DNA from: a virus
Length of the DNA stretch: 23,484 bases
Direction: 5' to 3' (one strand)
Virus record (IMG/VR): IMGVR_UViG_3300047491_000373
Coordinates: 1 to 23,484 of that record
Within the stretch, counting starts at the first letter, position 1. Each line of letters starts with the position of its first letter. The notes beneath the pieces were generated by a model. That model made no database searches. It saw only the letters and a program-made list of their open reading frames with translations, and was not told where the DNA came from. Below are positions 301 through 20,500 of this stretch, in pieces. A program made the position numbers and the translations under genes.

Positions 301-2565
301 TTAGAAAATGGCCATGGCAAATTGGTTGCCAGATGGCCTATTCGAGACGCTACTGAATGTCAGAGTCGTCTCATTGAACTTTATGAATGGCTTTGTGCTG
401 TAATCAAAGCTCAGATAGGCAACCTTGTCGGAATCTGATGCGGCCAGCAATGTGTTTGCCTGATTGTCAAAGTCAACAACTGTGTTGTCTTGAAGGAGCC
501 TGAATGAAGCCGAATTTACACCAGTGCCGCCAGTCTCCCATATGTCCGTGTTTGGGTTGTATGCCGATATTGCCCCTGTATTGTTGAAGAAGTAGACTCC
601 TTGACTCAATGGAACGAGCCTGCCTTCAGTTTTTGCAGGGCCAGCCATATCCGTCAACTTCTTGATGTCCAAGAAATATTCCGATGTTGTCCCAGATGTC
701 TTATAGAAGTTCTTGATTCGGAAGAATGTTCCAACACCTTGGTTTCTAAGAATGAATCCGGCGTTATCCTTCCAGCATGATCTATAGACACTCATGTGAC
801 CCTGGACTGGATTTCCAGAGATGTCATATGTGACTTCGTTGTTTTTAAGTTCTTGGGCGCCATTCTTGTAGTTTGCTGTTGTCAGAGTGTCCGTTGTGAC
901 TGACAAATCAGAAAGCGATATTTTGGATTTCACTTGGTTGGTTAAACTTGTGTTTGGCAGCTGTGATGTTGTTAGGCCACCAAATACAAAGTAAAGGCTT
1001 GTGGTGCTGTGCAAACTAACCCAGTTCCATGGCCTGCTCAATGGACTCTGTGTCAAGTATGTCTGTGTGAAGCCATTGAATTCATGTATGTTTATGTTTT
1101 CATTTGAGGATGGGTCAGATGGACCTCTTCCAGATGCATAATACAAAAGTCCAACCCCACTATTGCCACTTGAGGTTGTTCCTCGTGGAGCAAAACCAGT
1201 ATTTCTGTTGAACTCCCTCTTTTGTTGAGCCTCATTGTTCTGGCCATCAAGGAAACTGCTATTTCTAGATACAGTCACTGGGTTTGTGAATGTGGTTTTG
1301 AATGTCTCACTGACAAGGCCAAACTCATATGCATTTATCTGGCTTGCTGCAAAGTAGTTCCACAGCCACAGATTGTACTTTTCCACAACATCTATGGCTT
1401 CTTCATATGTGGTTATTCTGTAGGCTCCGTATTGCGTGTCGCACCTTAGCACCATGTTATAGATGCCACCAATGCTATATGACCCACGGACAGCAGATGA
1501 ATTGGTGTGAGTCAGATCGTCTGCGAGAGACCATGTATAGCTTGTCACTCCATCAATTGGCACTCCACCAGATAATTCCTCACCAGCGTAAGTCCTTCCT
1601 GTGTTTGGGTTTATGCCAGTCGGAACTTCTGCGTCAACAAATGTGTTTACTGGCGTCCTCAACACTGGAGTTGTTGTGTATGGTCCATTTGTCGGCACTC
1701 CAGATCTTGTCAAAACTTGACCAGTTCTAAGGTTGAAGTTAATTACAGCCTCTTCTGGTGCCGAAACTCGTGCATTGATGTATTCTGGGAAAACAACCGT
1801 ATCGGATCCAAAGTCATTAGTCACCGTTAAGCTGACATCATAGATTCCAGGCCTACTGTAAACCTTGTTTACCGTGCCGCCATCCAAGTCTTGCACAAGG
1901 ACATTGCTCTGGCTTATTGGACCATCAGTTGTACTTACGGTCACAATTGATGGTCCAGTGTTGTCTCCAAAGTCCCATATGTAACTTATGACGCCACTTG
2001 TTCCATCAGTCCCAAGTCTAAAACTCAGATCCTTGAACTCAACCGTTAGTGGTATAAGTCCAATCTTTGTGTTGGATGTGAACCATGCCTTTGGAACCAG
2101 TGCGATCTTCCGAAGATAGTTTATTCTCGCCTCCATGGTTCCAGTCAGTGGCTGCTGGGCTATCTCACCCTTCTTGCCGGCTGTTTGCTCGATCGCTATG
2201 ATGGCATTCTTTAGGGCGTTGTGGTGCTCAGCCATTACATTCATGGTTACATGCGTGATGTCTCTTGGCTTGGCCACATCAGTGAAGCATGGCAATAGCT
2301 CTAGATTGTCAAAAGAAACCACCGTCCTGCTTCCATAGTAGAATGTTATCGCACGAACATCGGCATCGCTGCACTGCTCTGTCAAAGTTATGAAGCCGGA
2401 GTCGGGGAATCTGCTTATGATCTCATTGTCACCAAATATGAATATTGACTTGTCGCCTGGGTTGTAGTCAGCCGACAATGTTACACGAAGGCTGTCATGC
2501 ACAAGGAACAAGGTGCTGTCACCGTCAATGCTTGTTGGGAAGTTTACCGTTGAAGGTATAACCAT
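301..2565 (-). CDS. PKD-domain tail adhesin with putative C-terminal beta-propeller
   Basis: This 754-residue protein appears modular. Residues 1-100 are a beta-rich N-terminal domain shared with both neighbours. Residues 107-160 form a helical linker with MAEHHNALKNAI. Residues 160-268 are a PKD fold with the hallmark YIWDFGDN (195-202) and GIYDVSLTVTNDFG (240-253). Residues 270-395 look like a second, diverged PKD domain (YTWSLADD, GIYNMVLRC). Residues 396-754 carry Kelch-like strands (YFVFGG near 525-530, AYNPNTDIWETGG 668-680) that suggest a beta-propeller. PKD domains are known in surface and phage-fibre proteins. The likely role is a distal tail or baseplate decoration that binds the host (inference). 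Its start ATG overlaps the upstream stop as TAATG, which implies translational coupling. Confidence 0.75.
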   Translation of the reverse strand: MVIPSTVNFPTSIDGDSTLFLVHDSLRVTLSADYNPGDKSIFIFGDNEIISRFPDSGFITLTEQCSDADVRAITFYYGSRTVVSFDNLELLPCFTDVAKPRDITHVTMNVMAEHHNALKNAIIAIEQTAGKKGEIAQQPLTGTMEARINYLRKIALVPKAWFTSNTKIGLIPLTVEFKDLSFRLGTDGTSGVISYIWDFGDNTGPSIVTVSTTDGPISQSNVLVQDLDGGTVNKVYSRPGIYDVSLTVTNDFGSDTVVFPEYINARVSAPEEAVINFNLRTGQVLTRSGVPTNGPYTTTPVLRTPVNTFVDAEVPTGINPNTGRTYAGEELSGGVPIDGVTSYTWSLADDLTHTNSSAVRGSYSIGGIYNMVLRCDTQYGAYRITTYEEAIDVVEKYNLWLWNYFAASQINAYEFGLVSETFKTTFTNPVTVSRNSSFLDGQNNEAQQKREFNRNTGFAPRGTTSSGNSGVGLLYYASGRGPSDPSSNENINIHEFNGFTQTYLTQSPLSRPWNWVSLHSTTSLYFVFGGLTTSQLPNTSLTNQVKSKISLSDLSVTTDTLTTANYKNGAQELKNNEVTYDISGNPVQGHMSVYRSCWKDNAGFILRNQGVGTFFRIKNFYKTSGTTSEYFLDIKKLTDMAGPAKTEGRLVPLSQGVYFFNNTGAISAYNPNTDIWETGGTGVNSASFRLLQDNTVVDFDNQANTLLAASDSDKVAYLSFDYSTKPFIKFNETTLTFSSVSNRPSGNQFAMAIF

Positions 2566-3614
2566 TATTGCACCACTATGCTTTCGCTGAGGAATGTACG
2601 CTTTGTCGTAGAGTTTTCCAAAATGGACATAAGGCCAGGTGTGTACTCACCAGGCTTGTCAAATACAAACCTTATTTCGTGCTTGTTTGGGTTATTCTCT
2701 TGGTAACTCTGGTTTGTGACTGGTATGCCATCAACCGTCCCATCTCCATCAAATATCCAGTACCTCTGGACAATGTCACCATCAGTCTGATCAATGAGCC
2801 TAAATTCAGTTGGGTCGATCGACATGGCATTGGCTGTCTCAAGTGAATAACCTGTGCTTGGGGTCACATAGAAGAAACTGTTTATCTCTTGCTTACTCAC
2901 TGTGATGTAGTTGCTCTTTGTCGTTATACCTTGGGCTCCAAGTATTGAGACAATATTCAGCTGCACGGAATATATCCCCTCGGACTGGTATGTGTGTGTT
3001 GGGCTCTTCTGCACTGATGTGGTGCCATCGCCAAAGTCCCAGAGGTACCTAACAAGAGGGCCAGTGCTGAAATTCTGGAATCTGACCTTGAGCGGCGGCT
3101 GTCCTATGATCTTGCTTGCCCTGAATATGGCCTTGGGAGCAAGGAATATGTTCTCTTGCCGCTTGAGGATTCCGTTGAGTGATGCAGCCGCAGGGTTGCT
3201 GGCCGTTCCAAGGTCTGTTTCTATGTTGTGTATTGCATCCTTGAGGGCGTTGTGGTGCTCGGCCATAACGCTATGGTTTACATTTGTGGTTGCTGGCCAT
3301 ATTGTCTGGCGTGAACCCGCAAAGCCACGGACAAGGTTGTAGAAGACGCCATCACTCTTGTTGCCATAGTAGATTATCTCATGGTTGCCAGCCTTTCCAG
3401 GAGGAGGCCCAAGCCTTATCAAGCCTCTTGGTGGGAACCCCTCGTTGTTGTCAACGATCACATACTTTCCATTGAAAGAAAGGGATTGCTTGAGGGTTGT
3501 GTGGGCATTGTTCTTGGCCTCATACATGGTCTGCTTGTCATCAAGAGCCAGTGGGAAGGCTGATAGGTTTCCAATGGAATAACCTGGTGTCAGTGTCGAA
3601 ATTCTAGTTGCCAT
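2565..3614 (-). CDS. PKD-domain tail/fibre structural protein
   Basis: This 349-residue protein has the same architecture as the neighbour it precedes but stops after two PKD-like domains. An N-terminal beta domain (1-105, with GFPPRGLIRLG and IIYYG) is followed by a helical linker with SVMAEHHNALKDAIHNIE (115-132). The first PKD domain (158-240) has YLWDFGDGTTS at 190-200 and GIYSVQLNIVS at 213-223. The second PKD-like domain (245-349) has YWIFDGDGTVDG at 285-296 and PGEYTPGLMS at 321-330. The linker codons share 22 of 23 bases with the paralogue (3244-3266 against 2213-2235), which suggests a fairly recent duplication. The gene overlaps the upstream coding region by 11 bases. It is probably a short paralogue, or an adaptor carrying the longer adhesin (inference). 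Confidence 0.75.
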   Translation of the reverse strand: MATRISTLTPGYSIGNLSAFPLALDDKQTMYEAKNNAHTTLKQSLSFNGKYVIVDNNEGFPPRGLIRLGPPPGKAGNHEIIYYGNKSDGVFYNLVRGFAGSRQTIWPATTNVNHSVMAEHHNALKDAIHNIETDLGTASNPAAASLNGILKRQENIFLAPKAIFRASKIIGQPPLKVRFQNFSTGPLVRYLWDFGDGTTSVQKSPTHTYQSEGIYSVQLNIVSILGAQGITTKSNYITVSKQEINSFFYVTPSTGYSLETANAMSIDPTEFRLIDQTDGDIVQRYWIFDGDGTVDGIPVTNQSYQENNPNKHEIRFVFDKPGEYTPGLMSILENSTTKRTFLSESIVVQ

Positions 3615-4374: not shown

Positions 4375-4878
4375 ATGCTCAATGGATCAAAGGCCTATTT
4401 CAGCGGCCCCATAGAATTCAGCAATGGCAATTACCGCACTCAACCATCAATCGACTTGCATAGAATGTTCGGCATCCAGATTTTTGACCCTGCTCTTGAC
4501 CCCAAGCAGCAGTGGGTTCCTGAGGTAGAACGAGCAAAGGCCGACAAGGACTACATGCGAATGAAGGAAATAGCCGAGAAATTTGTCCGAAAAGACCTTG
4601 GCATGTTGTACCAGTGCGACATGACAATAGCCTTCCTTCCACACAAGGTGCCAACCGTTGGGACTCACCATGAGATCATTGAAAGCTGGCGTACCATGAA
4701 GCCAACGCTGCTGGTTTGTCCAGATGGCATAGAGAACATACCAGTTTGGTATTTTGGTTTCATGCCATTGGATCACATGTTTTCTTCATGGGATGGTCTA
4801 TACGCCTATCTTCAACGCATCGAAAGTGGCGATGCATATGATGAGACATGGTACTTGCTACGCCAGAAATCAACATAA
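4375..4878 (+). CDS. Nucleoside 2-deoxyribosyltransferase-like protein
   Basis: This 167-residue protein is the only convincing plus-strand gene. It has the hallmarks of the nucleoside 2-deoxyribosyltransferase/DUF4406 fold: KAYFSGPIEF near the N-terminus (6-15), a central QCDMTIAFLP (80-89), and PTVGTHHEI (93-101), where Glu100 sits where the family's catalytic nucleophile is expected. TLLVCPDGIENIP (111-123) would be the following strand. Family members exchange or cleave the base of deoxynucleosides, so a role in nucleotide salvage or modified-base metabolism is possible, but substrate and activity cannot be read here. Start: ATG 6 bases after GGGAGA (4363-4368). Its 3' end overlaps the opposing gene by 9 bp with no terminator between. 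The isolated orientation suggests an acquired cargo (moron-like) gene. Confidence 0.65.
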   Translation: MLNGSKAYFSGPIEFSNGNYRTQPSIDLHRMFGIQIFDPALDPKQQWVPEVERAKADKDYMRMKEIAEKFVRKDLGMLYQCDMTIAFLPHKVPTVGTHHEIIESWRTMKPTLLVCPDGIENIPVWYFGFMPLDHMFSSWDGLYAYLQRIESGDAYDETWYLLRQKST

Positions 4879-6273: not shown

Positions 6274-6420
6274 CTATGGAGTATTGCTTTGATTGTTTTT
6301 GGGGACAATTTTTTTTCTGTCTATGCGCATTTGTCTAAATATGAATGTTCGCCTGCGCATGCTTTTTCTATTGTATTCAGCTGGTGTTTGCGCCGGTTTT
6401 TTGTCAAGCCAGTAGTTCAT
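6274..6420 (-). CDS. Small, highly basic protein (48 residues), unknown function
   Basis: This short gene occupies most of what looks like a 157-bp gap. Its ATG (6420-6418) overlaps the stop of the SET-domain gene as ATGA. It is preceded by a strong GGGAGG ribosome-binding site (6426-6431) with 5 bases between, and it ends at TAG (6274-6276), 14 bases before the next start. The product starts MNYWLDKKPAQTPAEYNRKS and continues with MRRRTFIFRQMRIDRKK. By my count it has 13 Lys/Arg against 3 Asp/Glu, a net charge near +10. No known family is recognised. Possible roles are nucleic-acid binding, a small virion protein, or a partner or substrate of the SET protein (all inference). The start signals make a real gene likely. 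Confidence 0.68.
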   Translation of the reverse strand: MNYWLDKKPAQTPAEYNRKSMRRRTFIFRQMRIDRKKIVPKNNQSNTP

Positions 6421-6935
6421 AATAACCTCCCAAGATCGTAAAGGTCGAGTTCAAGGAAGCTCTGCCAGTCACTCTTATCTGTCTTGTTTGATTCGTGTTG
6501 TTTTTGCATCCAACTGAGCAAATTTTGCCAGTTATCGCCATAGTTGCCAAGTATCTCTTCGTCTTTGGATACATCACGAAGGAACACATAGGCGATGCAT
6601 TCATTTCCAATGTATTCTATCTGCACATTTCTCTTGGACTCCTCATCCATGTGGTTCACCATGCCGGAAAATCCAAGTGGTATGACCATCTTGTTGCCGG
6701 TGACTATATCACCGCTTCCAAGCTTGATGACATCTAGAGCGAATTTGTACTGATTGGCAAATGTCGTGCACTTGTCGGCGTATGAATCCCTCTCGACAAT
6801 GACGCCACTTATCTCTATGTGGTCTCCCTTCTTGATGCTGCGCCTCGCAAACAGCCCCTTGCCGGCGCCCTTGATGGTTGACTCCTTGATGTAGAACCTA
6901 TCGTCATTCTCGTCGTATCGGAGCGATTTCCCCAT
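6417..6935 (-). CDS. SET-domain protein (putative lysine methyltransferase)
   Basis: This 172-residue protein matches the SET fold in order. STIKGAGKGLFARRSIKKGD (19-38) is the KGxGxFA cofactor segment. IPLGFSGMVNHMDEESKRNV (85-104) contains the NH and later Asn of the NHxxxxN region. FLRDVSKDEEILGNYGDNW (118-136) corresponds to the D/E-E-x(3)-Y-G end of the domain, with Tyr132 as the probable active-site tyrosine. SET proteins transfer methyl groups from S-adenosylmethionine to lysine. No pre-SET or post-SET cysteine cluster is visible, so it is a minimal SET unit plus a C-terminal helix (136-172). It is coupled by TGATG to the 89-residue gene and by ATGA to the 48-residue basic gene. Its substrate is unknown; a phage structural or host protein is possible. 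Confidence 0.78.
   Translation of the reverse strand: MGKSLRYDENDDRFYIKESTIKGAGKGLFARRSIKKGDHIEISGVIVERDSYADKCTTFANQYKFALDVIKLGSGDIVTGNKMVIPLGFSGMVNHMDEESKRNVQIEYIGNECIAYVFLRDVSKDEEILGNYGDNWQNLLSWMQKQHESNKTDKSDWQSFLELDLYDLGRLL
6426..6431 (-). promoter_or_regulatory. Strong ribosome-binding site inside the SET gene
   Basis: GGGAGG on the minus strand lies within the last codons of the SET gene (Leu-Gly-Arg-Leu-Leu-stop), 5 bases before the ATG of the 48-residue gene. It decides that start and suggests coupled translation. Confidence 0.7.
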
Positions 6936-7214: not shown

Positions 7215-7694
7215 CTAGACGAAGGAAAGTCTCCAATTGAATGTTATCTGCATGCTGCTTGTCTTGTTTAGGTCTGCGAAGTTTACCATGCTGTATAGGT
7301 CGCCATTTGACATCTGCAAGGCCATTTCATTGATGGCATAACCATTTGCATCGTCGAATGACAGCACTGATGTGAACACGACTTGACTTGGCATGTTCGT
7401 GTCAACCGAGCTTATTACTGGTTTGCTCGCTCTGGTGACTCCAAAAAGACCAGTCCTTGAACTATCAACGACTTTAAGCGTGCCACCAGATGTGCCACCA
7501 TCACCAAATATCATCTTGTTGATGTAAAAGTTGTAGGTTGACCCAATGCTGTTCGCTAGGCTGCTGGCAAGCGCCTCACGACCCTTGCGAAGGATGGTGT
7601 TCCTAACCTCAGAAACCTCCTTGCTGCCATCGGAATATTCAATGACCCTCTCAACAGTGCCGATTACTTTCAGTGGTTCATGCAATTCTTTCAT
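7215..7694 (-). CDS. Small baseplate/fibre-like structural protein
   Basis: This 159-residue protein overlaps the end of the 1,060-residue wedge gene as ATGA, with an AAGG-type site upstream. It has the segment VRNTILRKGREALASSLANS (30-49), then a Gly-rich stretch (MIFGDGGTSGGT, 61-72), and ends in strands INEMALQMSNGDLYSMVNFA (121-140) and SMQITFNWRLSFV. The N-T-I/V-L-x-x-G-R-x-x-L pattern with a terminal I-x-W-x-L-x-F strand is typical of small tail-fibre or baseplate-attached phage proteins. Its N-terminus (VIEYSDGSKE) resembles the C-terminus of the preceding protein (IIEYSDGTRK). The exact role is unknown; virion location is inferred from its place directly behind the wedge genes. Confidence 0.6.
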   Translation of the reverse strand: MKELHEPLKVIGTVERVIEYSDGSKEVSEVRNTILRKGREALASSLANSIGSTYNFYINKMIFGDGGTSGGTLKVVDSSRTGLFGVTRASKPVISSVDTNMPSQVVFTSVLSFDDANGYAINEMALQMSNGDLYSMVNFADLNKTSSMQITFNWRLSFV

Positions 7695-10600
7695 ATATCG
7701 CCTTTCTTTCTTGTGCCGTCACTATACTCTATTATAAATTCAATCCCTTCTTTTTGACCGGTTGATTCCAAGAAATTATCTTTTGGTGACTGCAGCATGT
7801 GCAGCTCCTCATTTCCTGATGCGTCATTGCCAACAGTCACCCTTCCACGCCTATCGATTGTGTCAAATGTGGCGGATTCAAGATCAAACTGCTGTCCTGG
7901 TATGGTCACGCCTTGGGTCTTGGTGTAACGGTATATGTTGTATGTTGTAGATGTGCCACCGCCAGATATGGTTTTCCAGTATGCATCTGGACCCTCTAGG
8001 GTTATTGTGGTGTTTCCAACTGGGTTGTTTCCATCGATTTCGGCTATGAAATACAAGTTTCCATTGATTTCAACAATATAATTTTCCTTGAAATGATCGT
8101 CCTCAAGTGGTGTTGCCACTACACCGTTCACCCCGTTGTTTATTGATAGGCTTGACTCGAGATCACCAGATATCTGAATTTTGAGGCCTTTATGGCTTAA
8201 ATAACCCACTTGGTTGTCAAGCAGCCTTCTAAATGTTGTCAAGCTTGCACCTGCGACATTGCCGCCGTTGTAGCCATCGATGTAGAACTGGTCGTCTGTC
8301 CCATCCTTGAAGCCAACAATTTTATACTCTGTCCCAGATATCTTCTGGTAGTCACCAATCACAAACACATTCTTCACATCATGCAGCGATGTGTTCAAGA
8401 CCTCCGTCCTGCCCCTGTAGGTAACTGTCAAGGCACCTGAGCTGCTGCTGAAAATCTCATTGTTATACTGATCGTAGGCCGTGTACGAAAGTGGCGATGC
8501 TGAGCTTGACGGCAAACTCCCATTGTCCTCAAGCGACAATGAACCATCGCTCTGCACATTCACTATGTTGAATGGGGTTGCGGAATACGCTGGTATCTTG
8601 ATTTTCCATGATGCTGTGCTGTAACCCTGACTGACATCCCAGAGCGACTTGAATTCAGAGAATGATTGGCTTGCGTCAATGAATTTGAAGAGGTTGTCTT
8701 GGTATATGTTTATTGTGCTCGATGCATCTATAGGATTTGACAGTCGAAAGCTAAATGCTCTCTGGTTGAGGGCGAGCCTTGAGCTGAATATGTTGTTTGT
8801 CTCATTTATCGGCTCGGCTATTGACAATAATTCAACCGTTTTTGGAGTTGGGTTGTCAACATTGTACTCACCGGCAAGAGTTCCACTCAATATCTTGAGT
8901 ATGGCCGTGCCGTCAGTGATCATGCCTATGGATTTGAAGTTTGCCTCGCCGCAAAATAGCACAACACTGTCGTTGTAAGCTGTCCCAGTTCCAGAGTCAA
9001 CGACGCTTGATGCAGCAAGACTGTCTCTAAGTACCGCCTGGGGTCCACTGAGACCCTTCATCATCACCCTGTTGAACCACATCTGTGCGTTGCCAGATAT
9101 GGTGAATGCGTTTTGGAGGAATGTAACAAGTATCTCATAGTCTTCCTCTGGTGGTGTAACCGTTTCGTTTATGCCGCCGTATATGTTCATCACATGAAGA
9201 ACTGCATGGAATGGAAGGCACTCACGGAGCACATCATGAGCCTCAACTATCCTGTCATTGCTCAAATACTCAATTTCTAGGTCTATGTTGTATTTGCTGC
9301 TAAGGCCAGAGTGGCACGGGTCAACGAAGTTCTTGTCGATGTCACATGGATCCTTGCTGTTGCGTATGCTTCCGTTGTACTCTTCCATGTTGTATATGTT
9401 TTCGCTGTACGGGAACTCAGTCCTTACTTGGCCAAATATAATGTCGTCATGGAATGGGTTCTTTGTTGGTATGATGATGTCAAACAGAGGGTCGGTCTCC
9501 TCGATCAGCCGCACATTCCAGTTTTTTGCAGGGTATTGGTTGTCACGCTCGTCACGGGAGTCCATGAGCGGCAGCATCCTGATGTAATCCTCGATTGTCT
9601 GCTGTGTGCCGGTCATGACCTCTCTGACCTTGTAGATGACCCTTACGGAGTCGCCCTCAGCGAGCGTTATTGGTGACACGGAAAGCGTGTCACCAATCCA
9701 CCTTAGCACGGATAATCCATCAACCTCGTCAAACATGATGTAATCTGAAGATAGGGCGACCCAACTTTCGCTGTCTGCATACCTTATGTAAAGCTCAAAA
9801 TTGTCAAGGTCAAGTGGCAATGCGGTTCTGTCAAGTATGAATATATCATTCTGACCATCGTATATGAAAACCTCTTGCCATGTGTGGTTTGAGATTACCT
9901 GCCAAAGCCTTGTTAGCTTTATGAACTTCACACCAGCTTGATCCAGTGATTCCTTGAGACCGCCAATTGTCCCCTTTTTCTTGAATAATGGCACGGCGGT
10001 TTTTATCTGTCGTCTCCACCTGTAAGGGTCGTTTGTTTTTAGCCTCAGATTGAAAAGGTTCGAAAGGAATGGAAGCAATGGCTCGGTTAGAACATTTGCG
10101 TCATAAAGGTCAATCAACTGATTTGCGTAGTTTTCAAGCACTGTGAAGCCATCGGCTATGGCAAGGTTTAATTTTTTCAAAACATCTGGTGTTCTGTCAA
10201 ATTCACTAAGTCTTGCCTTGAACATTTCTGGAGTGTATCGCTCCAAAAGTGTTGGGTACTTTTCAAGCGGTGTGAAGTGCGATGGTATGGCGTTTGCCTC
10301 CACATTCACACTTGTTATGCTGAATTTCTGGTGGCTTGATTTGCTGGTGCCAGCTATGACCGATGTCCAAGTGTAACAGACAAAATAGTCTCCCTCACGG
10401 AAACTGAATGGTTTCCACACATATTTGAAATTACCATAAAGAGTGTTGCCCTCTTCGTCTTCGTCAACCTTTTCAATTAGGGCGTTTCCAAGGTCTGTGG
10501 AAAGCCACGCCGGAAATGTGTCAGTTCCAACTGTGTAAACAGGAGTTGCATCCTTGTAGTAGAACTTCTGCGACTTGACGCTGCTTTCTAGATCGGTTCG

Positions 10601-10873
10601 GAGTTTCTTGGCATTAAAGATGTTTTCCTCGGTTGGGCTATCGCAGGCAAGCTTTTCTGCAGCAATGGTGGCAGCAAGCTTTTCGCTGTTGTAGATGTCC
10701 TCCGTGTATTCATTGAGAGTTGGGTCAACGAAGCTTCTCTCGATGAAGTAGATGACAATCTTGTCAACTTTGTATGGGTCGGCAATTAAGCACCCACTGT
10801 CGTCTGGAGTGGTGAACTCGAGTACGATCTCGTCATTGAGGGTCGGGTTTTCTGTAATTCGCTTTTGTGCCAT
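7691..10873 (-). CDS. Baseplate wedge protein, gp7/gpI-like with long C-terminal extension
   Basis: This 1,060-residue protein contains a P2 gpI-type tail domain at about 200-330: LLERYTPEMFKARLSEFDRT (209-228), LPFLSNLFNLRL (267-278), YRWRRQIKTAVPLFKKKGT (284-302) and GLKESLDQAGV (305-315). This is the helix pair typical of the wedge protein that follows gpJ. RECLPFHAVLHVMNIYGG (550-567) closes that region, as in gpI-like proteins. Residues 575-1060 are a beta-rich extension with no family I recognise. Overall length and order (gp25, gp6/J, then this) parallel T4 gp7, which is 1,032 residues. Its ATG is 4 bases past the J stop, with no clear ribosome-binding site, suggesting coupling. A perfect 12-bp inverted repeat lies inside it at 9669-9697. 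Confidence 0.8.
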   Translation of the reverse strand: MAQKRITENPTLNDEIVLEFTTPDDSGCLIADPYKVDKIVIYFIERSFVDPTLNEYTEDIYNSEKLAATIAAEKLACDSPTEENIFNAKKLRTDLESSVKSQKFYYKDATPVYTVGTDTFPAWLSTDLGNALIEKVDEDEEGNTLYGNFKYVWKPFSFREGDYFVCYTWTSVIAGTSKSSHQKFSITSVNVEANAIPSHFTPLEKYPTLLERYTPEMFKARLSEFDRTPDVLKKLNLAIADGFTVLENYANQLIDLYDANVLTEPLLPFLSNLFNLRLKTNDPYRWRRQIKTAVPLFKKKGTIGGLKESLDQAGVKFIKLTRLWQVISNHTWQEVFIYDGQNDIFILDRTALPLDLDNFELYIRYADSESWVALSSDYIMFDEVDGLSVLRWIGDTLSVSPITLAEGDSVRVIYKVREVMTGTQQTIEDYIRMLPLMDSRDERDNQYPAKNWNVRLIEETDPLFDIIIPTKNPFHDDIIFGQVRTEFPYSENIYNMEEYNGSIRNSKDPCDIDKNFVDPCHSGLSSKYNIDLEIEYLSNDRIVEAHDVLRECLPFHAVLHVMNIYGGINETVTPPEEDYEILVTFLQNAFTISGNAQMWFNRVMMKGLSGPQAVLRDSLAASSVVDSGTGTAYNDSVVLFCGEANFKSIGMITDGTAILKILSGTLAGEYNVDNPTPKTVELLSIAEPINETNNIFSSRLALNQRAFSFRLSNPIDASSTINIYQDNLFKFIDASQSFSEFKSLWDVSQGYSTASWKIKIPAYSATPFNIVNVQSDGSLSLEDNGSLPSSSASPLSYTAYDQYNNEIFSSSSGALTVTYRGRTEVLNTSLHDVKNVFVIGDYQKISGTEYKIVGFKDGTDDQFYIDGYNGGNVAGASLTTFRRLLDNQVGYLSHKGLKIQISGDLESSLSINNGVNGVVATPLEDDHFKENYIVEINGNLYFIAEIDGNNPVGNTTITLEGPDAYWKTISGGGTSTTYNIYRYTKTQGVTIPGQQFDLESATFDTIDRRGRVTVGNDASGNEELHMLQSPKDNFLESTGQKEGIEFIIEYSDGTRKKGDI
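9669..9697. repeat. Perfect 12-bp inverted repeat with 5-base loop inside a gene
   Basis: ATTGGTGACACG (9669-9680) and CGTGTCACCAAT (9686-9697) are exact reverse complements separated by GAAAG. In the mRNA this would fold into a stable hairpin at codons for IGDTLSVSPI of the wedge protein. No T/U tract follows on either strand, so it does not look like an intrinsic terminator. Confidence 0.8.
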
Positions 10874-10877
10874 GGTT

Positions 10878-12431
10878 TTATTCGTAAACGAATCCTAGGT
10901 CGATGATGTCAGGCCTGATTATCTCAAAGTATTTTGCGGTCACGATGTTTGTCGCAGTTGGCGAATCATCCGTGCTGAAAGCAATGTCAATTGATGAAAT
11001 CTCCTTTAAGTCCGAAAGTTCCTTGACTATGTCGGACTCCTTGAGGTTCTGGCCAAATTCCCATCGGCTGATGTTGAAGAAACTATTGACTCTGTTCAAT
11101 ATTTTAACTCTGAGTTCATCCTCGAATTTCTTGTAAAATTTATCTATCGTCACAGATATGTTGACATCAACCGTGATTGGCACACCATCCTTGATGCATA
11201 TGTAATCTGTAACCATTTTTTTTGCCTCAAGGTGGTTCATCAATGCTGTTTTTAGTTGGTCTGAGGCGTTCTCAAGTGTTTCGGTGTCTTTTCTCGCTAA
11301 AATGTAGATGTCTATGATGTTTGCGGCGCATCCATGGTTGCGAAGTACTGCTGTTGATTTTCCAATTTGCCCTTGATATGGAGTTGCGAACTGATCTGTC
11401 AAGGTTTTATAGTCAAGTCCTGTAACAGCCCTATCTTGTGTCCTTAGATAGGCTGGTAGTTTTCTCCTTATATCTTCAAGGCTATCTCCATCAAAACCAT
11501 ATTGTGCTCTTGTGTAGTTGTTGAGAAACACTGGAACTGTGTAGCTTAGACCAGGAACATCAACCAGAATGCTTTTTTGCGTTGCGTTAGTTACAAGGTT
11601 TCCTCTTACACCACCGCCAGTTCTGTAAGTGAATCTAATTAATGAACCTATGGTTGGAACCATGCCAGCAACACCATTACCAAATATGATAAATGCACTA
11701 AAGTCAGAATTGTATTCAATACGGTATTCACGAAGCTGTTGTGACTCTGTAAAGAAATCAACTTTGTTCCAAAGAACACCATCAACTTCAACTTTGATGC
11801 TATCGTAAATCACAGTTGTAAATCCAGTTCTGAAGATTTGATTTACAACCCCAGTTCCTGGAACCTCTTCAATCCTTGTTTTTCCTTCTAATCCGACAAT
11901 GCTTGCATTGACCAATGAATTTGCTGGTAAAAGTATGTCGTCATCAAAAAGTGGATTTCCCTCTGCGTCTGCGGCAAACAATTCCATGTCCAATGACTCA
12001 CCGCCACCATTGACTTGAATGTAAATTGGAGTTGCGATTGTTATATCTGTGGTTATTGCATTTGTTAAACTTGCCGTCCAATAGCTTTTCGCTGCTATGG
12101 GTGGAGTTGGCTGAAAGCCTACAAGTCTACACAGTCTGAATGCGTTGTCTAATTCAGTTACTGTGTCTATGAAAATTTCATTCGCTATCTGATCCATCTT
12201 AAAAGAAAGCGTATCAGCAATGAAGGCCCAGTTTTCCAAAAGCATTACAGCCAATGAAGACTCAACGAAATCAGAAAACTCGCCAGCAAACCTTTGTTGT
12301 GTGAATTGCAGGAGCCTTGTCTTCATGCTCCAAAAATCTTGGTTTGTGTAGTTTAAATTGAACACATTTGGCTTTTTAATGATTTCAGCCTTAGCGTATG
12401 GTTCTACATTAAAAGGACAATTATTGGTCAT
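10878..12431 (-). CDS. Baseplate wedge protein, gp6/J-like
   Basis: This 517-residue protein is a baseplate J-like protein. Evidence: a helical N-terminal region with RFAGEFSDFVESSLAVMLLE (48-67) and FKMDQIANEIFIDT, the segment LCRLVGFQPTPPIAAKSY, the family's signature FGNGVAGMVPTIGSLIRFTY, then RTGGGVRGNL and AQYGFDGDSLEDIRRKLPAY. In contractile tails this protein forms the wedge ring around the hub and pairs with the gp7/gpI-like protein, which here follows after 4 bases. The ATG has a good TAGGAG site. The gene is noticeably more AT-rich than the genes to its left. Family assignment is confident; the T4 equivalence is by order and family knowledge. Confidence 0.85.
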   Translation of the reverse strand: MTNNCPFNVEPYAKAEIIKKPNVFNLNYTNQDFWSMKTRLLQFTQQRFAGEFSDFVESSLAVMLLENWAFIADTLSFKMDQIANEIFIDTVTELDNAFRLCRLVGFQPTPPIAAKSYWTASLTNAITTDITIATPIYIQVNGGGESLDMELFAADAEGNPLFDDDILLPANSLVNASIVGLEGKTRIEEVPGTGVVNQIFRTGFTTVIYDSIKVEVDGVLWNKVDFFTESQQLREYRIEYNSDFSAFIIFGNGVAGMVPTIGSLIRFTYRTGGGVRGNLVTNATQKSILVDVPGLSYTVPVFLNNYTRAQYGFDGDSLEDIRRKLPAYLRTQDRAVTGLDYKTLTDQFATPYQGQIGKSTAVLRNHGCAANIIDIYILARKDTETLENASDQLKTALMNHLEAKKMVTDYICIKDGVPITVDVNISVTIDKFYKKFEDELRVKILNRVNSFFNISRWEFGQNLKESDIVKELSDLKEISSIDIAFSTDDSPTATNIVTAKYFEIIRPDIIDLGFVYE

Positions 12432-12432
12432 A

Positions 12433-12861
12433 TTAAGCTCCTAAGGGTACTTCTAGCCTCAGCTCATTAATCGTCCTGATATCAAGTCTATCAAAGAATG
12501 TAACTCTGATGAGCAAAACATGCTCGTTGTCTGGGTCTGGATCGTCTGGGTTTGCGCTATCCGAGTCAAGCTTTGACTGAATATATATGTTTTCAATCGC
12601 CACTCTTGGCTCCCACATTTTCAATGAAGTGGCTATCATTCCTTTTGCCTCTAAGATAGTGCTGGCATCATTTGGGTTAAAAAAAAGTTTCCTTAATGGT
12701 GTGCCAAAATCTGGCAACATAACCCTTTCCCTTGGATTTGTGAGCAAAAGAACAATCATGTCTGATTTGATCTGGTCAACTCCACTTTGAATGTAAAAGA
12801 AACCCTTTGGGTTCTTTGTTATTGGGTATGGAACCCCCTTGAAACTTTTTTGGGATATCAT
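12433..12861 (-). CDS. Baseplate wedge protein, gp25-like
   Basis: This 142-residue protein matches the GPW_gp25 family. SGVDQIKSDMIVLLLTNPRE (26-45) and ERVMLPDFGTPLRKLFFNPN (45-64) contain the conserved N-P-G/R-E-R and P-D-x-G-x-x-L motifs, and WEPRVAIENI (83-92) is the typical E-P-R strand. It then ends in strands VLLIRVTFFD and LRLEVPLGA. In contractile tails it links sheath initiation to the wedge. Its start overlaps the spike gene's stop as TAATG, with AGGTGG upstream. An acidic insert (SDSANPDDPDPDNE, 105-118) lengthens one loop. Confidence 0.9.
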   Translation of the reverse strand: MISQKSFKGVPYPITKNPKGFFYIQSGVDQIKSDMIVLLLTNPRERVMLPDFGTPLRKLFFNPNDASTILEAKGMIATSLKMWEPRVAIENIYIQSKLDSDSANPDDPDPDNEHVLLIRVTFFDRLDIRTINELRLEVPLGA

Positions 12862-15104
12862 TATGCACCACCTGCGGTTGAGGTTTCATTGGCTGGATTG
12901 CATCTCTTCTTTGCAAATGGCAATATGTGAGTTATTGACATGCATGGGTCTGTCTTGCCAACACTTGCCACGATCTTAGAACTTAGCCTTACCGTCCCAG
13001 TCTTCATGTCATAAACGCATAACCTTCCTATTCTTGGGCTGTTCTTTGGCCCATCCTTGCCAGCAAGTAGGGCTATGAAGTCCTTGGCGTAGAAGATGTG
13101 AGATTTTTTTGTTATGTTGACATAGAAATCCCTGGTGTACACCAACTTGAGTTTGCTGATCATTTCTATTTTGTTGTGTGGTGTTGAGCATCCACCTATG
13201 TCGCCTATGATTTCAACTTGATCATCTGTAGTGGCTATAATGTGGTTGCCGGCAACACGCAGAAAAACAAGACCTGGACCACTGGGTGCCTCTTGATACT
13301 TGTGAATGTGTGGCCCCCTACAATTTGTGTTGTGTGGGCAGTAAATCTGGATGTATTGCCTTTGGGTGGTTATTTGGCTGTTGTCATCACGCATGAGGAA
13401 TTCAAGTCCATAGCCAGATCTTATTTTCACATATGCCTTTTTGGCCAGAGGTTTTGGGTCGCCACCATGGCCGACTGGCGTTTGTTCTTCATTTTGTTTT
13501 TCTGGACTAAGACTTTTTCTGGAACCTTCGCCACATTGTTCATTGTCTTCATCAATCATCTCGAACTGGTGCTTGCTTGTTGTCTGCATGCTGATGCCAC
13601 GGTGCTTGCCAGCTATGCACTTGGATTTCTCATGGTCGTTTAGCTCAATTCTGTTTCCAAACGCCGTCAAAAGCTTGATGCCATTCCACTCGCTTCTTAT
13701 CTCTGGCTCTTTCTCAAGGTCGGATAGCTCAATCATGTGCCCCGTGGCAGATTTGATGTAGGTTCTTCCCTCAAATATGTTTTCTGCACCAAAGTCGAAC
13801 GGTCTAAGGCTTCTCTCCCATTCTGGTATTCCAACTGGGCAACTTACCGAATCATCCATGACGAATGTGTGCCCACCAACACTCATGAGTTGTATGCCAG
13901 ACTGTGGTAGGTCACAGGTGTTGTTCTGTGGTGTCTCTGGACCCCTATAGGCACGGCATTCGTTTTCATGCTTGAAGTATGGATTTTGCCCTTTTTGTTC
14001 TTTGTAACGAGATGATTTGGGATGTCCAGTTCTTGCTTGAGATGAAAATCTTGGTATCAGTTTTCCACATATTGGAATCTCTGATGTTGGAACATAATCT
14101 GGAACTATATCTTTTGTTTGTTGACTTTTTTTCGCTAGCGCCTTTGCTGATGCGTTTAATTCATCGACGCCTTGGTTTGGATTACCATCAGTTGGCACAA
14201 TGCCAGCATCTATACCTATTGCTCTTGCCATATCTGGATATGGCTCTTCTGGTGTCCCAGCTATACAGCTGACATCATCATCGGCAACTATCTCGTCCGT
14301 GTTTGGGAAAGTAACCTTGCAATCTGGGTGTGCCCATTGGCCGCCATAATGAAGATGGTCATCCTTGAGCATCAGCCAGTTTCCTGTACTGCTTATAAGC
14401 TCAATCCTTTTCCATCTTCTATTGCACTTTGGATCTCCATCAACCATTTTTAGGGCATGCTTTTCAGGTGTCTTAAACCCATAAATGTTTGGAAATGTGA
14501 TGATTCTTTGGACTTCTGGCATATCAGCAAAGTCTAGAATGGAAGTTAAATCAAAACCATTATAGCTTTCTGTGTTCCATGGAGGCAAAACTTGACTTTC
14601 ATCATTGGGTCCGACCAAGTAACCTTTGCGATGACCTTCCCATATCTTGTAGTACTCATCCATAAGGTGGTTGACACCCCAATTGTGTTGTCCCTCTGGC
14701 CCTCTATTCCTAGGCCATACAGTTCCAATGTAAAAAGCTGAGCTTCTATTGCCATTTTCAAAAATCAAAGCAATCGATGATCCAGCTGGTGGAACCCAAT
14801 TTAGCCCAGAATCATCAAAACCGCCCATGGCAGATATTGGATGCGCCCATGGAAGTTCTTTGATTTGTACATCAGCCCTATGTAGTTTTGGACAGAAAAA
14901 TCTGACACGGTTCTGCTTCCATATGTCTATAGTCTCGATGACTAAACCAACCATCAAACCAAAATGCATGTCCTTGGTATCGCTTGTCTGGCTTCTCTGG
15001 TTTGATCTTGATATCGCCACAGTTGAGTATTCAACACTCCCAAGTTGATTGGTAAGGCTCAAAATTTTTCTTTCTAGTTCTGCGACTTTGCTTGAGATGC
15101 TCAT
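12861..15104 (-). CDS. Central baseplate spike, gp5/gpV/VgrG-like
   Basis: This 747-residue protein has a short N-terminal coiled-coil (1-22), then an OB fold at about 48-130 (GLVIETIDIWKQNRVRFFCP, LNWVPPAGSSIALIFENG, YIGTVWP) like gp5, gpV and VgrG. Downstream at least seven segments of the form G-N/H-x-hydrophobic-x-L-x-D recur: STGNWLMLKDD (239-249), GGHTFVMDD, TGHMIELSD, FGNRIELND, KHQFEMIDED, GYGLEFLMRDD and GNHIIATTDD. These suit a trimeric beta-helical needle. No lysozyme domain is present. A Cys/His cluster at 589-601 (CPHNTNCRGPHIH) could bind metal. No separate PAAR tip gene was recognised. It is coupled by ATGA to the upstream hub gene, with GGAGAGGAAG as ribosome-binding site. Confidence 0.82.
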   Translation of the reverse strand: MSISSKVAELERKILSLTNQLGSVEYSTVAISRSNQRSQTSDTKDMHFGLMVGLVIETIDIWKQNRVRFFCPKLHRADVQIKELPWAHPISAMGGFDDSGLNWVPPAGSSIALIFENGNRSSAFYIGTVWPRNRGPEGQHNWGVNHLMDEYYKIWEGHRKGYLVGPNDESQVLPPWNTESYNGFDLTSILDFADMPEVQRIITFPNIYGFKTPEKHALKMVDGDPKCNRRWKRIELISSTGNWLMLKDDHLHYGGQWAHPDCKVTFPNTDEIVADDDVSCIAGTPEEPYPDMARAIGIDAGIVPTDGNPNQGVDELNASAKALAKKSQQTKDIVPDYVPTSEIPICGKLIPRFSSQARTGHPKSSRYKEQKGQNPYFKHENECRAYRGPETPQNNTCDLPQSGIQLMSVGGHTFVMDDSVSCPVGIPEWERSLRPFDFGAENIFEGRTYIKSATGHMIELSDLEKEPEIRSEWNGIKLLTAFGNRIELNDHEKSKCIAGKHRGISMQTTSKHQFEMIDEDNEQCGEGSRKSLSPEKQNEEQTPVGHGGDPKPLAKKAYVKIRSGYGLEFLMRDDNSQITTQRQYIQIYCPHNTNCRGPHIHKYQEAPSGPGLVFLRVAGNHIIATTDDQVEIIGDIGGCSTPHNKIEMISKLKLVYTRDFYVNITKKSHIFYAKDFIALLAGKDGPKNSPRIGRLCVYDMKTGTVRLSSKIVASVGKTDPCMSITHILPFAKKRCNPANETSTAGGA

Positions 15105-16575: not shown

Positions 16576-16899
16576 TTATGAAATTTGACCAGGTATTTTT
16601 ATGCTTAATCCAGATTTAAAATCCCATATATCTTTTATTCCGTTGGCTTCCATGATGATGTGCCAAAATATGCTGGCACCATAAAAATCAACTGCTACTA
16701 AATCTGGTCTATATTCGTATCCCTTGTTCACTACTGTGTACTTATCATTTTTTGATTTCTCAATTTTTGTCTTTCTGTACAGTGGGAAAGTAATATACTT
16801 ATTTTCACCATAGTAAATTACTGTGTTGTCTTCATACCTACTGCCAGAAGCCACCACTTTACCAGCTGATATCCTTGAGACTTCTATTTTGTTGGCCAT
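16576..16899 (-). CDS. Small baseplate protein, gp53/LysM-like
   Basis: This 107-residue protein ends in YRPDLVAVDFYGASIFWHII (62-81) followed by MEANGIKDIWDFKSGLSIKI. This resembles T4 gp53 and the LysM-like baseplate proteins, where Y-R-P-D-x-V-A-x-x-x-Y-G and N-G-I-x-D-x-x-x-x-x-G are conserved. The N-terminal half is beta-rich (VIYYGENKYITFPLYRK). It is expected to help join wedges around the hub. The ATG follows CGGAGA, which sits directly after the stop of the upstream gene. This is one of the most AT-rich parts of the window (36 G/C in 120 bases at 16681-16800 by hand count). Confidence 0.75.
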   Translation of the reverse strand: MANKIEVSRISAGKVVASGSRYEDNTVIYYGENKYITFPLYRKTKIEKSKNDKYTVVNKGYEYRPDLVAVDFYGASIFWHIIMEANGIKDIWDFKSGLSIKIPGQIS

Positions 16900-16911: not shown

Positions 16912-17487
16912 TTACTGAGAGCCGCCAGTTACAACTATGTCTTCCGCATATGGCAAGTCGGCTGATTGGTAAACAACCTCAAAGTCAAGGCTTACATCTA
17001 ATTTGTATGGAATACCTTCAACTTCATCCCAAGGAACTGCAGGATCAAACTTGACATTGTAATTGTTCAAAACAACACAAAGTGTTTCATCTGCCAAATT
17101 TTCATAACACTTGATTTCCATGATTGGTGGCGGAACATAAGTTCCAGTTTGAGCTTGTTGAGGGTAGACATGCGCTTCAAGCCATCGAAGTGTGTTCTTG
17201 ATGGCAGTTGCTGATTGCGGGCCACTTTCTTGTTGTACAAAAAAATGGCATTCGCATGTAATCATTCTATTTTCAGAATTAGCATATACTTTAAATGGAG
17301 CGGTTCTTCCAATGCCAGTTTCATCATTGTACTTAGCTGATTTTTTATCACTTATGTCTGGTAGATTGTCAAAATATAAAGTGTCAATTTCACCTTTGGA
17401 ATACAACGGGCCATTTGCCTCCAAAGTGCTTGAAATATAACACTTGTCAAGTGGAATAAGTCTTCCATCTCTTCTTGTAGCCTTCAT
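16912..17487 (-). CDS. Tail tube/hub adaptor-like protein (CIS-tube type)
   Basis: This 191-residue protein sits directly behind the tape measure, in the place of the tube-initiator or hub-adaptor proteins of contractile systems. Seen features: IDTLYFDNLPDISDKKSAKY (34-53), then TGIGRTAPFKVYANSENRMI (57-76). This L-P-x-x-x-x-D...G-R-x-x-P-x-x-x-Y...R pattern recalls CIS-tube/LysM adaptor proteins of the Afp7 type. After it come a helix (SATAIKNTLRWLEAHVYP) and VLNNYNVKFDPAVPWDEVEG with DVSLDFEVVY, typical of tube-like beta barrels. A strong AAGGGGTG site precedes the ATG. Family assignment is tentative; structural-baseplate assignment is likely from context. Confidence 0.6.
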   Translation of the reverse strand: MKATRRDGRLIPLDKCYISSTLEANGPLYSKGEIDTLYFDNLPDISDKKSAKYNDETGIGRTAPFKVYANSENRMITCECHFFVQQESGPQSATAIKNTLRWLEAHVYPQQAQTGTYVPPPIMEIKCYENLADETLCVVLNNYNVKFDPAVPWDEVEGIPYKLDVSLDFEVVYQSADLPYAEDIVVTGGSQ

Positions 17488-17503: not shown

Positions 17504-20500
17504 TTATTTAGTTCCAGATCCAATGTTGGAAACTTGCTTGCCAGATGTTTGCATATATGCTCCGAACGCCCATTTTGCATTCATATATGGTTTGTTCATG
17601 GTTTTCCTTGATGATGTATCAGCATCTGGCGCTGGCGAACCTCCAGACGATAAGTTCTCTTCACCGATGGCATCCACTAACTTAGTTAAAAGCTCTACCA
17701 TTTGCTCGTTGAGTTGTGTTTGGTACGATGTCTCATTGGCGATATTAGTCAATTCTGGCGATCCAATGTTGGTTGAGGATGGCTCAGATGTGGCTTTGTC
17801 TCTCTGAACCATGTCTTGCATGCCAGCCTTGGGCGGAACCGCAGTTGCGGTTTGTGTTGATGCAGTTGCCGAATCATTGGCTGATGATCCAAACAACCAA
17901 CCACCAACCGATGATGCTATGCTGCTTATGCCTGATCCAAGCATTTTTGCAGGTGCTGTGGCCATGTCAAACACTGTACTTGCAGCGCTTCCAACTGTAC
18001 TCATGGCTCCACTAACGAAATCGGTTGCTTTACTTGCAGCGCCTCCAAGAACTGATCCTATGGAGCTAAACATGCCACCAAACATACTTGCAGCACCACT
18101 TGCGACACCACTAATTGCAGAGCCAACAGAGGATATTCCACCAGTGACAAGACTTGCAGCACCACTTGCGACACCACTAATTGCAGAGCCAACAGCGGAT
18201 ATTCCACCAGTGACAAGGCTTGCGGCACCACTTGCGACACCACTAATTGCAGAGCCAACAGCGGATATTCCACCAGTGACAAGGCTTGCGGCACCACTTG
18301 CGACACTTCCTATTGCAGAGCCAACACTTTTAACACCACCCCAAATTGTTTCGCCTACCGCCTTAGTTCCATCCCATATTGCCCCAGGTATGGAAGTTCC
18401 GTCCTCGGTAAACCACTTGTAAAGTTCTGTTGCGCCTCCAACTATACCACCAACAGCTGCGCCAACTGCAGTTCCAATCACGGGAACAACAGATCCAATT
18501 GCTGCACCCGTCATTGCACCAGTGGCTGCTGATCCAGCAACACCAAGGGCTTTGTCACCTGTGCTTCCTTCCTCTACCCCAAGCCAGCTGCTAAACATAC
18601 TACCTGTCTTGGCACTCCCAGTAATTGCTCCAAGTAAGGTTGATTCGACCGTCCCTCTTCCAGTTTCTGCAGCTTCGGTTGCGCCCGTTATGCCTCCGAT
18701 AAGTGGCCCGAGTAATGGCAATGATTTTCCAAGAACCTTGGTTGCTGGACCAAGAACTTTAGTAGCCCCAGCAAGCTTTGAAACTGGACCCATTCCCTTT
18801 GTTATTGCTCCAGTTTTACCAAATGCTTTTCCGACTATCTTGCCTGTCGTTGAGCTGATTGATGAAAATGCCTTGCCACCAACCTCGGCTATTTTCCCAC
18901 CAGCTGTTTTTAGGCCTTGGAATGCCTTGGTTCCAAGCTCTGTAAGCTTTGGAGCCATGTTGCTCAACCCAGCCATGGCTTTGGTACCAAGTGTTGCCAC
19001 CTTTGGTGCTATCTCTTGAACCTTGGCAAATGCCTTTGCGCCATATTCAGTCAATTTTGGCCCTATGCTCCTTGCGCTTTCAAATGCTTTTGCGCCATAT
19101 TCTGTGATTTTTGGAGCTACATTCTTGACTGCTTCAAATGCCTTGCCGCCATATTCTGCGATCTTTGGTCCAGCACCTTTGACTGCATTGAGAGCTTTGT
19201 TTCCGTACTCGGCTATTTTTGGGCCGGCTCCCTTGACAGCATCAAGGGCTTTGTTGCCATACTCAATAATCTTAGGGCCAGCACCTTTAACGGCTTCAAA
19301 TGCCTTGTTTCCATATTCCGCAATCTTCGGTCCAGCACCTTTCACTGCATTAAGAGCTTTGTTCCCATATTCTGCAATCTTTGGTCCAGCGCCTTTGACG
19401 GCTTCAAATGCCTTGTTTCCATATTCCGCAATCTTCGGACCAGCACTTTTCACTGCATCAAGTGCTTTGGTGCCATATTCGACAAGCTTTGGTCCAGCTT
19501 GAACAAATTGTCCTGCGAAATTTTTCACTTGAGTGAAAGCTTTGGCTCCATATTCGGCAATTTTAGGTCCGGCGCCTTTTACCGCCTCAAAAGCTTTAAC
19601 ACCATATTCCGCAATCTTCGGACCAGCGCTCTTGACAGCCTCAAGAGCCTTGCCGCCATATTCAACCATTTTTGGCCCAGCGGTCTTTACTGTCTCGAGA
19701 GCCTTGCCTCCATATTCCACAAGTTTTGGGCCGATTGATTTCAATCCATCAAGTGCCTTTGTTCCATATTGGAACAACTTGTTTCCAATTGAACCGAATG
19801 ATGACATTGCCTTGCCACTGTGCTCAATTATCTTCGGGCCAACGCCCTTGATCTTTTCAAATGCTTTGGCTCCAAACTTGGTCACCGATGGGGCGACCTC
19901 ACGGACCTTGTTGAAGGCCATGCTTCCATACTCTGCAACCTTTGGCCCAACGGATTTGATCTTGTCCATGGCAGTGGCGCCATATTGCATGATGCTTGGT
20001 GCTGATGACTTGACAGCCTCAAATGCCTTGTAACCTATCTTGGACACCTTGCCGCCAAATGTTTTGACCTTGTCCATTGCCTTGGCGCCATATGATGTCA
20101 CCTTTGGCCCAATTTCCTCAACCTTCTGCATTGCCTTTGATCCAGCAGTCTTTAGGTTCTCGCCAACTTTCTCCATGGTGTTTGAAATCTTGGTCATGAA
20201 CTCACCCTTTGGCGATTTCACGATTTTCATGCCATCCTTGACGCTGTCGGCTACGGTCACACCAAGATCAACCTTCTCCAAGCCATCACGGATCTTCTCT
20301 GCCACACCGCCCTTGTCTAGGAATCCCTTTGCTATGACACCAGCCGATATCGTGCTCATTACCGCAGCCGAAATGCCTGCGCCACCGCCACCCTTGCCGG
20401 CCTCAGGCTGTGCCGTTGGTGATTTCATCCATGACATGTCCATGGCTGCTTTGCCAGAGCTGCCAATTCCACCACCAAGAGCTATTTTTGTGTCAATGCT

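Follow-up and report, generated by a model that had tools for sequence, protein, structure and literature searches.

Organisation of the tail module

The window, that is the whole stretch of DNA analysed here, is a virus record of 23,484 bases representing a linear fragment. Judged by sequence, its minus strand carries a contractile-tail module with a P2-like order, in which a large frame is followed by proteins of 191, 107 and 488 aa and these in turn by a Phage_base_V protein, GPW_gp25, a gpJ/gp6-like protein and a Tail_P2_I-like protein (Table 1). The position of the large frame directly upstream of the baseplate and tail-tip genes, together with its size, suggests that it encodes the tape measure protein (TMP), a function assigned through gene order; the same downstream order is found in the relatives L006, L012 and L018 and in LR756511. 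Matches of the frame to PHROG 305 (2.4e-21), 1272, 1535 and 58 run mostly via repetitive regions, and the complete TMP of L012 showed no PHROG tape-measure match. LR756511, the nearest record in the phage collection, is an uncultured phage genome of 595 kb. Since further relatives sit on contigs of 381 and 532 kb, the source of the window is probably a huge phage.

Elsewhere in the window, a SET-domain protein (PF00856, E 1.3e-9) is encoded among the structural genes at 6417-6935 (minus strand), and two PKD-domain proteins (301-2565 and 2565-3614, minus strand) are possibly virion surface proteins. A nucleoside 2-deoxyribosyltransferase-like gene lies on the opposite strand (4375-4878, plus), its match (E 1e-5) falling just under the Pfam cut-off.

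Table 1. Position of the predicted tail genes and of the repeat features within the large frame.
Feature	Position	Strand	Remarks
Predicted tape measure protein gene, 1,992 aa	17504..23482	-	open frame; P2-like tail position; 5' end runs off the window
TMP region (aa 1-908) with degenerate modules of 81-82 residues	20759..23482	-	common to relatives
24th, degenerate unit GENLKTAGSKAMQKVEEI, aa 1107-1124	20111..20164	-	
23 18-residue units, consensus GPKIAEYGAKAFEAVKSA, aa 1125-1545	18848..20110	-	hydrophobic period 3.60
More homogeneous tract core, aa 1251-1455	19118..19732	-	neighbouring units 56-89% identical, flanks 17-61%
7-residue insert AGQFVQA between unit blocks	19496..19516	-	helical phase preserved (700 degrees = -20)
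Further tandem tract of 22-residue units (3.6 copies of 66 bp, 95% matches)	18087..18326	-	hydrophobic period 3.65
Conserved TMP C-terminus, aa 1882-1992	17507..17839	-	
191-aa tail protein after the TMP	16912..17487	-	
107-aa gp53-like baseplate wedge protein	16576..16899	-	PHROG 7145, E 3.4e-14
747-aa gpV-like baseplate spike protein	12861..15104	-	Phage_base_V, E 5.5e-7
gp25/gpW baseplate wedge	12433..12861	-	GPW_gp25, E 1.7e-14
gp6/gpJ baseplate wedge	10878..12431	-	PHROG 219, E 6.6e-29
gpI-like tail protein	7691..10873	-	Tail_P2_I, E 1e-5

The 18-residue array

In the C-terminal half of the 5'-truncated frame lies a tandem array of 18-residue units. A first-pass annotation of the window had described a tape measure tract of 23 units at this place, and its coordinates and its count are borne out, while its assignment to a tape measure is supported: the array consists of 11 units, a 7-aa insert and 12 units or, with an adjoining degenerate unit counted, of 12 units, the insert and 12 units (aa 1107-1545). 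The self-identity of the protein is 54% at an offset of 18 residues, whereas offsets 2-79 average 10%, and the repeat-finder check proposed by that annotation recovered 54-bp periods with 73-80% matches (TRF). The units had been called exact, but their mean pairwise identity is only 49% in amino acids and 56% in nucleotides, with adjacent units ranging from 17% to 89% aa. Likewise, the Gly-Pro start ascribed to every unit is found in 15 of 24, while five units start with Ala-Pro and four otherwise, and lysines number two to four per unit rather than three to four. The proposed 4-3-4-3-4 spacing of hydrophobic positions, on the other hand, is well kept, with A11 in all 24 units, G8 in 23, I/L/V/M at position 4 in every unit and V/I/L at position 15 in 22. 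Lysine is similarly frequent at positions 10 (22/24) and 3 (21/24), and the net charge of the tract is +35. The units contain no Trp; Tyr7 is present in 17 and Phe12 in 12 of the 24. PHROG 32669 matches 11 units of the array. Open frames on the opposite strand across the tract were regarded as by-products of repeat coding and not counted as genes.

Identity between units amounts to 65% at codon positions 1 and 2 and to 37% at fourfold-degenerate sites, which indicates that the unit is old and that the array has been kept by selection at the protein level. The centre of the tract is more uniform and its edges have diverged, a pattern that would fit duplication and exchange among the central units. 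Several related contigs start inside such repeats, as an assembly artefact might have it, yet the units differ by 44% on average in DNA and by 63% at fourfold sites, so that the 18-mer array is readable from short reads and an artefact is extremely improbable. For the 22-mer and 20-mer arrays, the count of units is less safe. The contigs of L001, L002 and L101 begin within tandem arrays, so the number of units recorded in IMG/VR for near-identical arrays may not be reliable.

Tandem DNA-binding motifs of the helix-hairpin-helix type, with GxGPK as their loops, were also considered for the units. The segment GAGPKIAE is similar to such a hairpin and the summed E values reach 9e-8 (HHH_8) and 5.5e-7 (HHH_2); however, not one stretch passes by itself, the first hairpin glycine (position 17) occurs in only 7 of 24 units, and the homologous 20-residue array described below is free of proline. 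We regard this reading as very remote.

Helical character of the tract

The helical periodicity, another check proposed at first pass, proved strong. Hydrophobicity peaks at 3.60 residues per turn in both blocks (power 47.7 and 50.3), and the power rises to 95.6 when the blocks are joined across the insert, a value reached in none of 500 shuffles. As the peak is exactly 3.60, the prediction of an amphipathic helix for the 18-mer tract is well supported. The keeping of phase by the 7-aa insert is, taken alone, weak evidence, because several insert lengths would keep it. The helical wheel is class-A-like: the hydrophobic arc extends from 340 to 120 degrees and is flanked by Lys at 160, 280 and 300 degrees, while acidic residues at 220-240 degrees occupy the opposite side. 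A PDB sequence search gave only weak matches, to designed helical proteins.

Instead of a long helix, the units might form a series of separate short helices, hairpins, a beta-solenoid or a linker without order. Gly-Pro is indeed present in most units, and the pLDDT of the 18-mer array is low: AlphaFold2 drew the second block as a helix that passes the Gly-Pro sites almost without a break, with a pLDDT of 41 that makes the model no evidence either way, and the straight bundle without supercoil proposed at first pass draws no support from it. For the 20-mer array of L001, moreover, AlphaFold2 returned a beta-solenoid with a mean pLDDT of 73. This is likely an artefact, as perfect repeats are known to give confident false beta-solenoids (PMC11795689). 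A period of 3.60 is helical, and it runs in phase through every unit and across the insert; departures from a long helix are thus considered unlikely.

An amphipathic, lysine-flanked helix could also serve in lipid binding. After ejection, Pro-punctuated helices resembling those of apolipoproteins would lie on or line the host membrane and aid the DNA conduit. The class-A-like wheel and the net charge are in line with this, and Pfam shows a weak similarity to Apolipoprotein (E 0.0016, far under the cut-off; PF01442 at 18.6 bits against a curated cut-off of 90 bits) as well as to Phasin_2 (E 7.5e-8, yet no single stretch passes). However, profile matches to repetitive proteins are unreliable, a helix bundle explains the amphipathicity as well, and the 22-mers and 83-aa modules that replace the array in relatives lack the Lys-rich, Pro-punctuated design. 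Lipid binding appears decidedly improbable, and a dual use of the array, first as a helix bundle in the tail and then as an apolipoprotein-like belt coating or lining the host membrane during formation of the DNA conduit, is highly doubtful.

Different units in the same region of related tape measures

Relatives carry other units in the same TMP region. In L001 and L006, where the adjacent genes (191-aa protein through gp6) share 78-91% identity with those of the window, the array is clearly related to that of the window and ends in the same flank, and it is built of 20-residue units (KITTAGNNAFEAIKSGETFK; eight copies, followed by spacings of 21 and 18) from which proline is absent. The 3.6 periodicity is missing from the 20-mer array of L001, where 378 of 500 shuffles were equal or better. 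Since this array breaks the helical phase, a continuous helix is not general among these TMPs. The short 22-residue tract of the window corresponds to a related long array in L100, where it is expanded to several hundred residues, and in L101; the periods in L097 are 22 and 40 residues (40 = 22 + 18). L012 shows neither and has near-identical modules of ~83 residues in the region instead. More distant relatives possess arrays of 11, 15 (proline-rich), 19 and 30 residues, and a looser version of the unit, PQSVKDNAAKAFDQVKNG, could be made out by eye within the 30-residue array of L145/L197.

These units bear on the model that follows from the first pass, in which five exact turns per 18-residue unit would be the design, the helices would form a straight, unsupercoiled bundle and, more speculatively, the units would match the tail rings. 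The 3.60 periodicity is exact over 439 residues and crosses the insert in phase, and several units of relatives (11, 22, and 22 + 18 = 40) keep the phase too. Yet 11/3, 18/5 and 40/11 all do so, making 18 one solution among several; the homologous 20-mer array is without the periodicity, and distant relatives have 15- and 19-residue arrays. With 20-mers, 22-mers or ~83-aa modules in its place, a functional requirement for a five-turn unit is not supported. The match of three units to two tail rings is inconsistent across unit sizes, which vary too freely among relatives for commensurability. The five-turn design is accordingly quite unlikely.

Two further features of these proteins were observed. 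The TMP of L158/L201 (532-kb contig) combines a proline-rich 15-residue array (TRPPRTVLPPVERDA) with long Pro/Gln-rich stretches unlike a helix. A motif like GSIYTHDxHxEKIL recurs at differing positions, namely aa 981 in the window, 132 and 789 in L012, 124 and 834 in L100 and 1479 in LR756511, and also occurs in L183.

Tblastn queries with the TMP or the tract against the phage collection returned nothing useful, probably because low-complexity filtering strips the tract. No second array came up with a degenerate DNA pattern of the unit, which matched once in each of 5 viral and 54 genome stretches; the four viral stretches that were read showed no 18-residue period. A match in Saccharomonospora PIS 136 (TMP-like, without an 18-mer array) and matches in Vibrio Mardecavirus (a small protein among replication genes) were set aside as chance.

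Length of the tape measure

Complete TMPs are available for L012 (3,980 aa) and L100 (3,917 aa). The window is co-linear with them over aa 200-800, at offsets of 1983-1985 and 1988-1992, respectively, and again at the C-terminus, at offsets of 1988 (L012) and 1925 (L100); in between, an ~81-residue module is missing before aa 873 and the content between the aligned parts differs. From this co-linearity, a full length of ~3,980 aa can be extrapolated for the TMP of the window. Its near-equality with L012 is one comparison and could be due to chance. Strict conservation of total length failed on more relatives: the TMPs of L196 and L197 are 63% identical and ~9% apart in length (L197, open at its 5' end, being extrapolated), and frames at the TMP position in the wider clade span roughly 1,100 to 4,750 aa, and some exceed this. 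Length thus appears to be kept in the near group, not as a rule.

A probable helical spacer of exchangeable units

We consider it probable that the tract is a duplicable and exchangeable amphipathic helical spacer of a giant contractile-tail TMP, and one of several unit types. Each unit would supply five turns of amphipathic helix, in most cases with a cap or kink at Gly-Pro, and its Ala/Gly/Ile/Val face would stay on one side from unit to unit. Several TMP copies might pack these faces together in the lumen of the tail tube, possibly three by analogy with phage 80alpha, for which a TMP stoichiometry of three was reported (PMC7048315). If fully helical, the 439 residues would add up to ~66 nm of tail length (0.15 nm per residue); a TMP of 4,000 aa would, on the same condition, correspond to a tail of up to ~600 nm. 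The array may have grown by duplication of the 54-bp unit, with its centre partly homogenised. Elongation and added length would be what matters, and not the unit size of 18, since relatives use other units in the region. Deletions in the TMP of TP901-1 shorten the tail proportionally, and alanines can stand in for one of the repeats (PMC5099701). An imaged tail of this clade was not found in the literature.

The clade amounts to a natural experiment on the properties that a tape measure has to keep, as close relatives with similar baseplate genes build the same part of the ruler from 18-, 20- or 22-residue units or from 83-residue modules. Two complete TMPs and one extrapolated lie within ~2% in length, which points to length, and not the unit, as the property preserved in this group; the 9% difference between L196 and L197 marks where this rule fails. 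Whether the helix of a TMP has to be continuous can be tested clearly on the 20-mer array.

Comparison with known systems

In the tail module of P2, the tape measure gene T is followed by U, X, D, V, W, J and I. The window has the same order and homologues of V, W, J and I, but its TMP is several times longer. Apolipoprotein A-I consists of Pro-punctuated, class-A-like amphipathic helix repeats of 22 residues; the array in the window is likewise Pro-punctuated and class-A-like, but its units are 18-mers and its match stays under the Pfam cut-off. A giant TMP is shared with Thermus phage P23-45, for which a TMP of 5,002 residues with an N-terminal RNA polymerase and an extremely long tail are described (PMC10770324).

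The closest parallel is found in the lactococcal phages p2 and TP901-1, whose TMPs contain repeats of 11 and 18 residues (PMC5099701, PMC3271669). TMP repeats of these sizes are thus already published, contrary to the first-pass view that an 18-residue unit sets this protein apart. In both cases tandem units within the TMP act, or in the window would act, as a spacer that adds length. The lactococcal arrays, however, are mixed arrays of 11 and 18 residues with a Trp or Phe marker at a fixed position, whereas the window has a nearly uniform 18-mer with Gly-Pro, Lys and an invariant Ala in a contractile-tail, probably huge phage, and lacks such a marker. We therefore suggest that the array works like the p2 and TP901-1 repeats without being filed in the same marker family. 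Two features appear new: an 18-mer array of nearly uniform Gly-Pro/Lys units that lacks Trp markers, and the differing unit types that take its place in close relatives.
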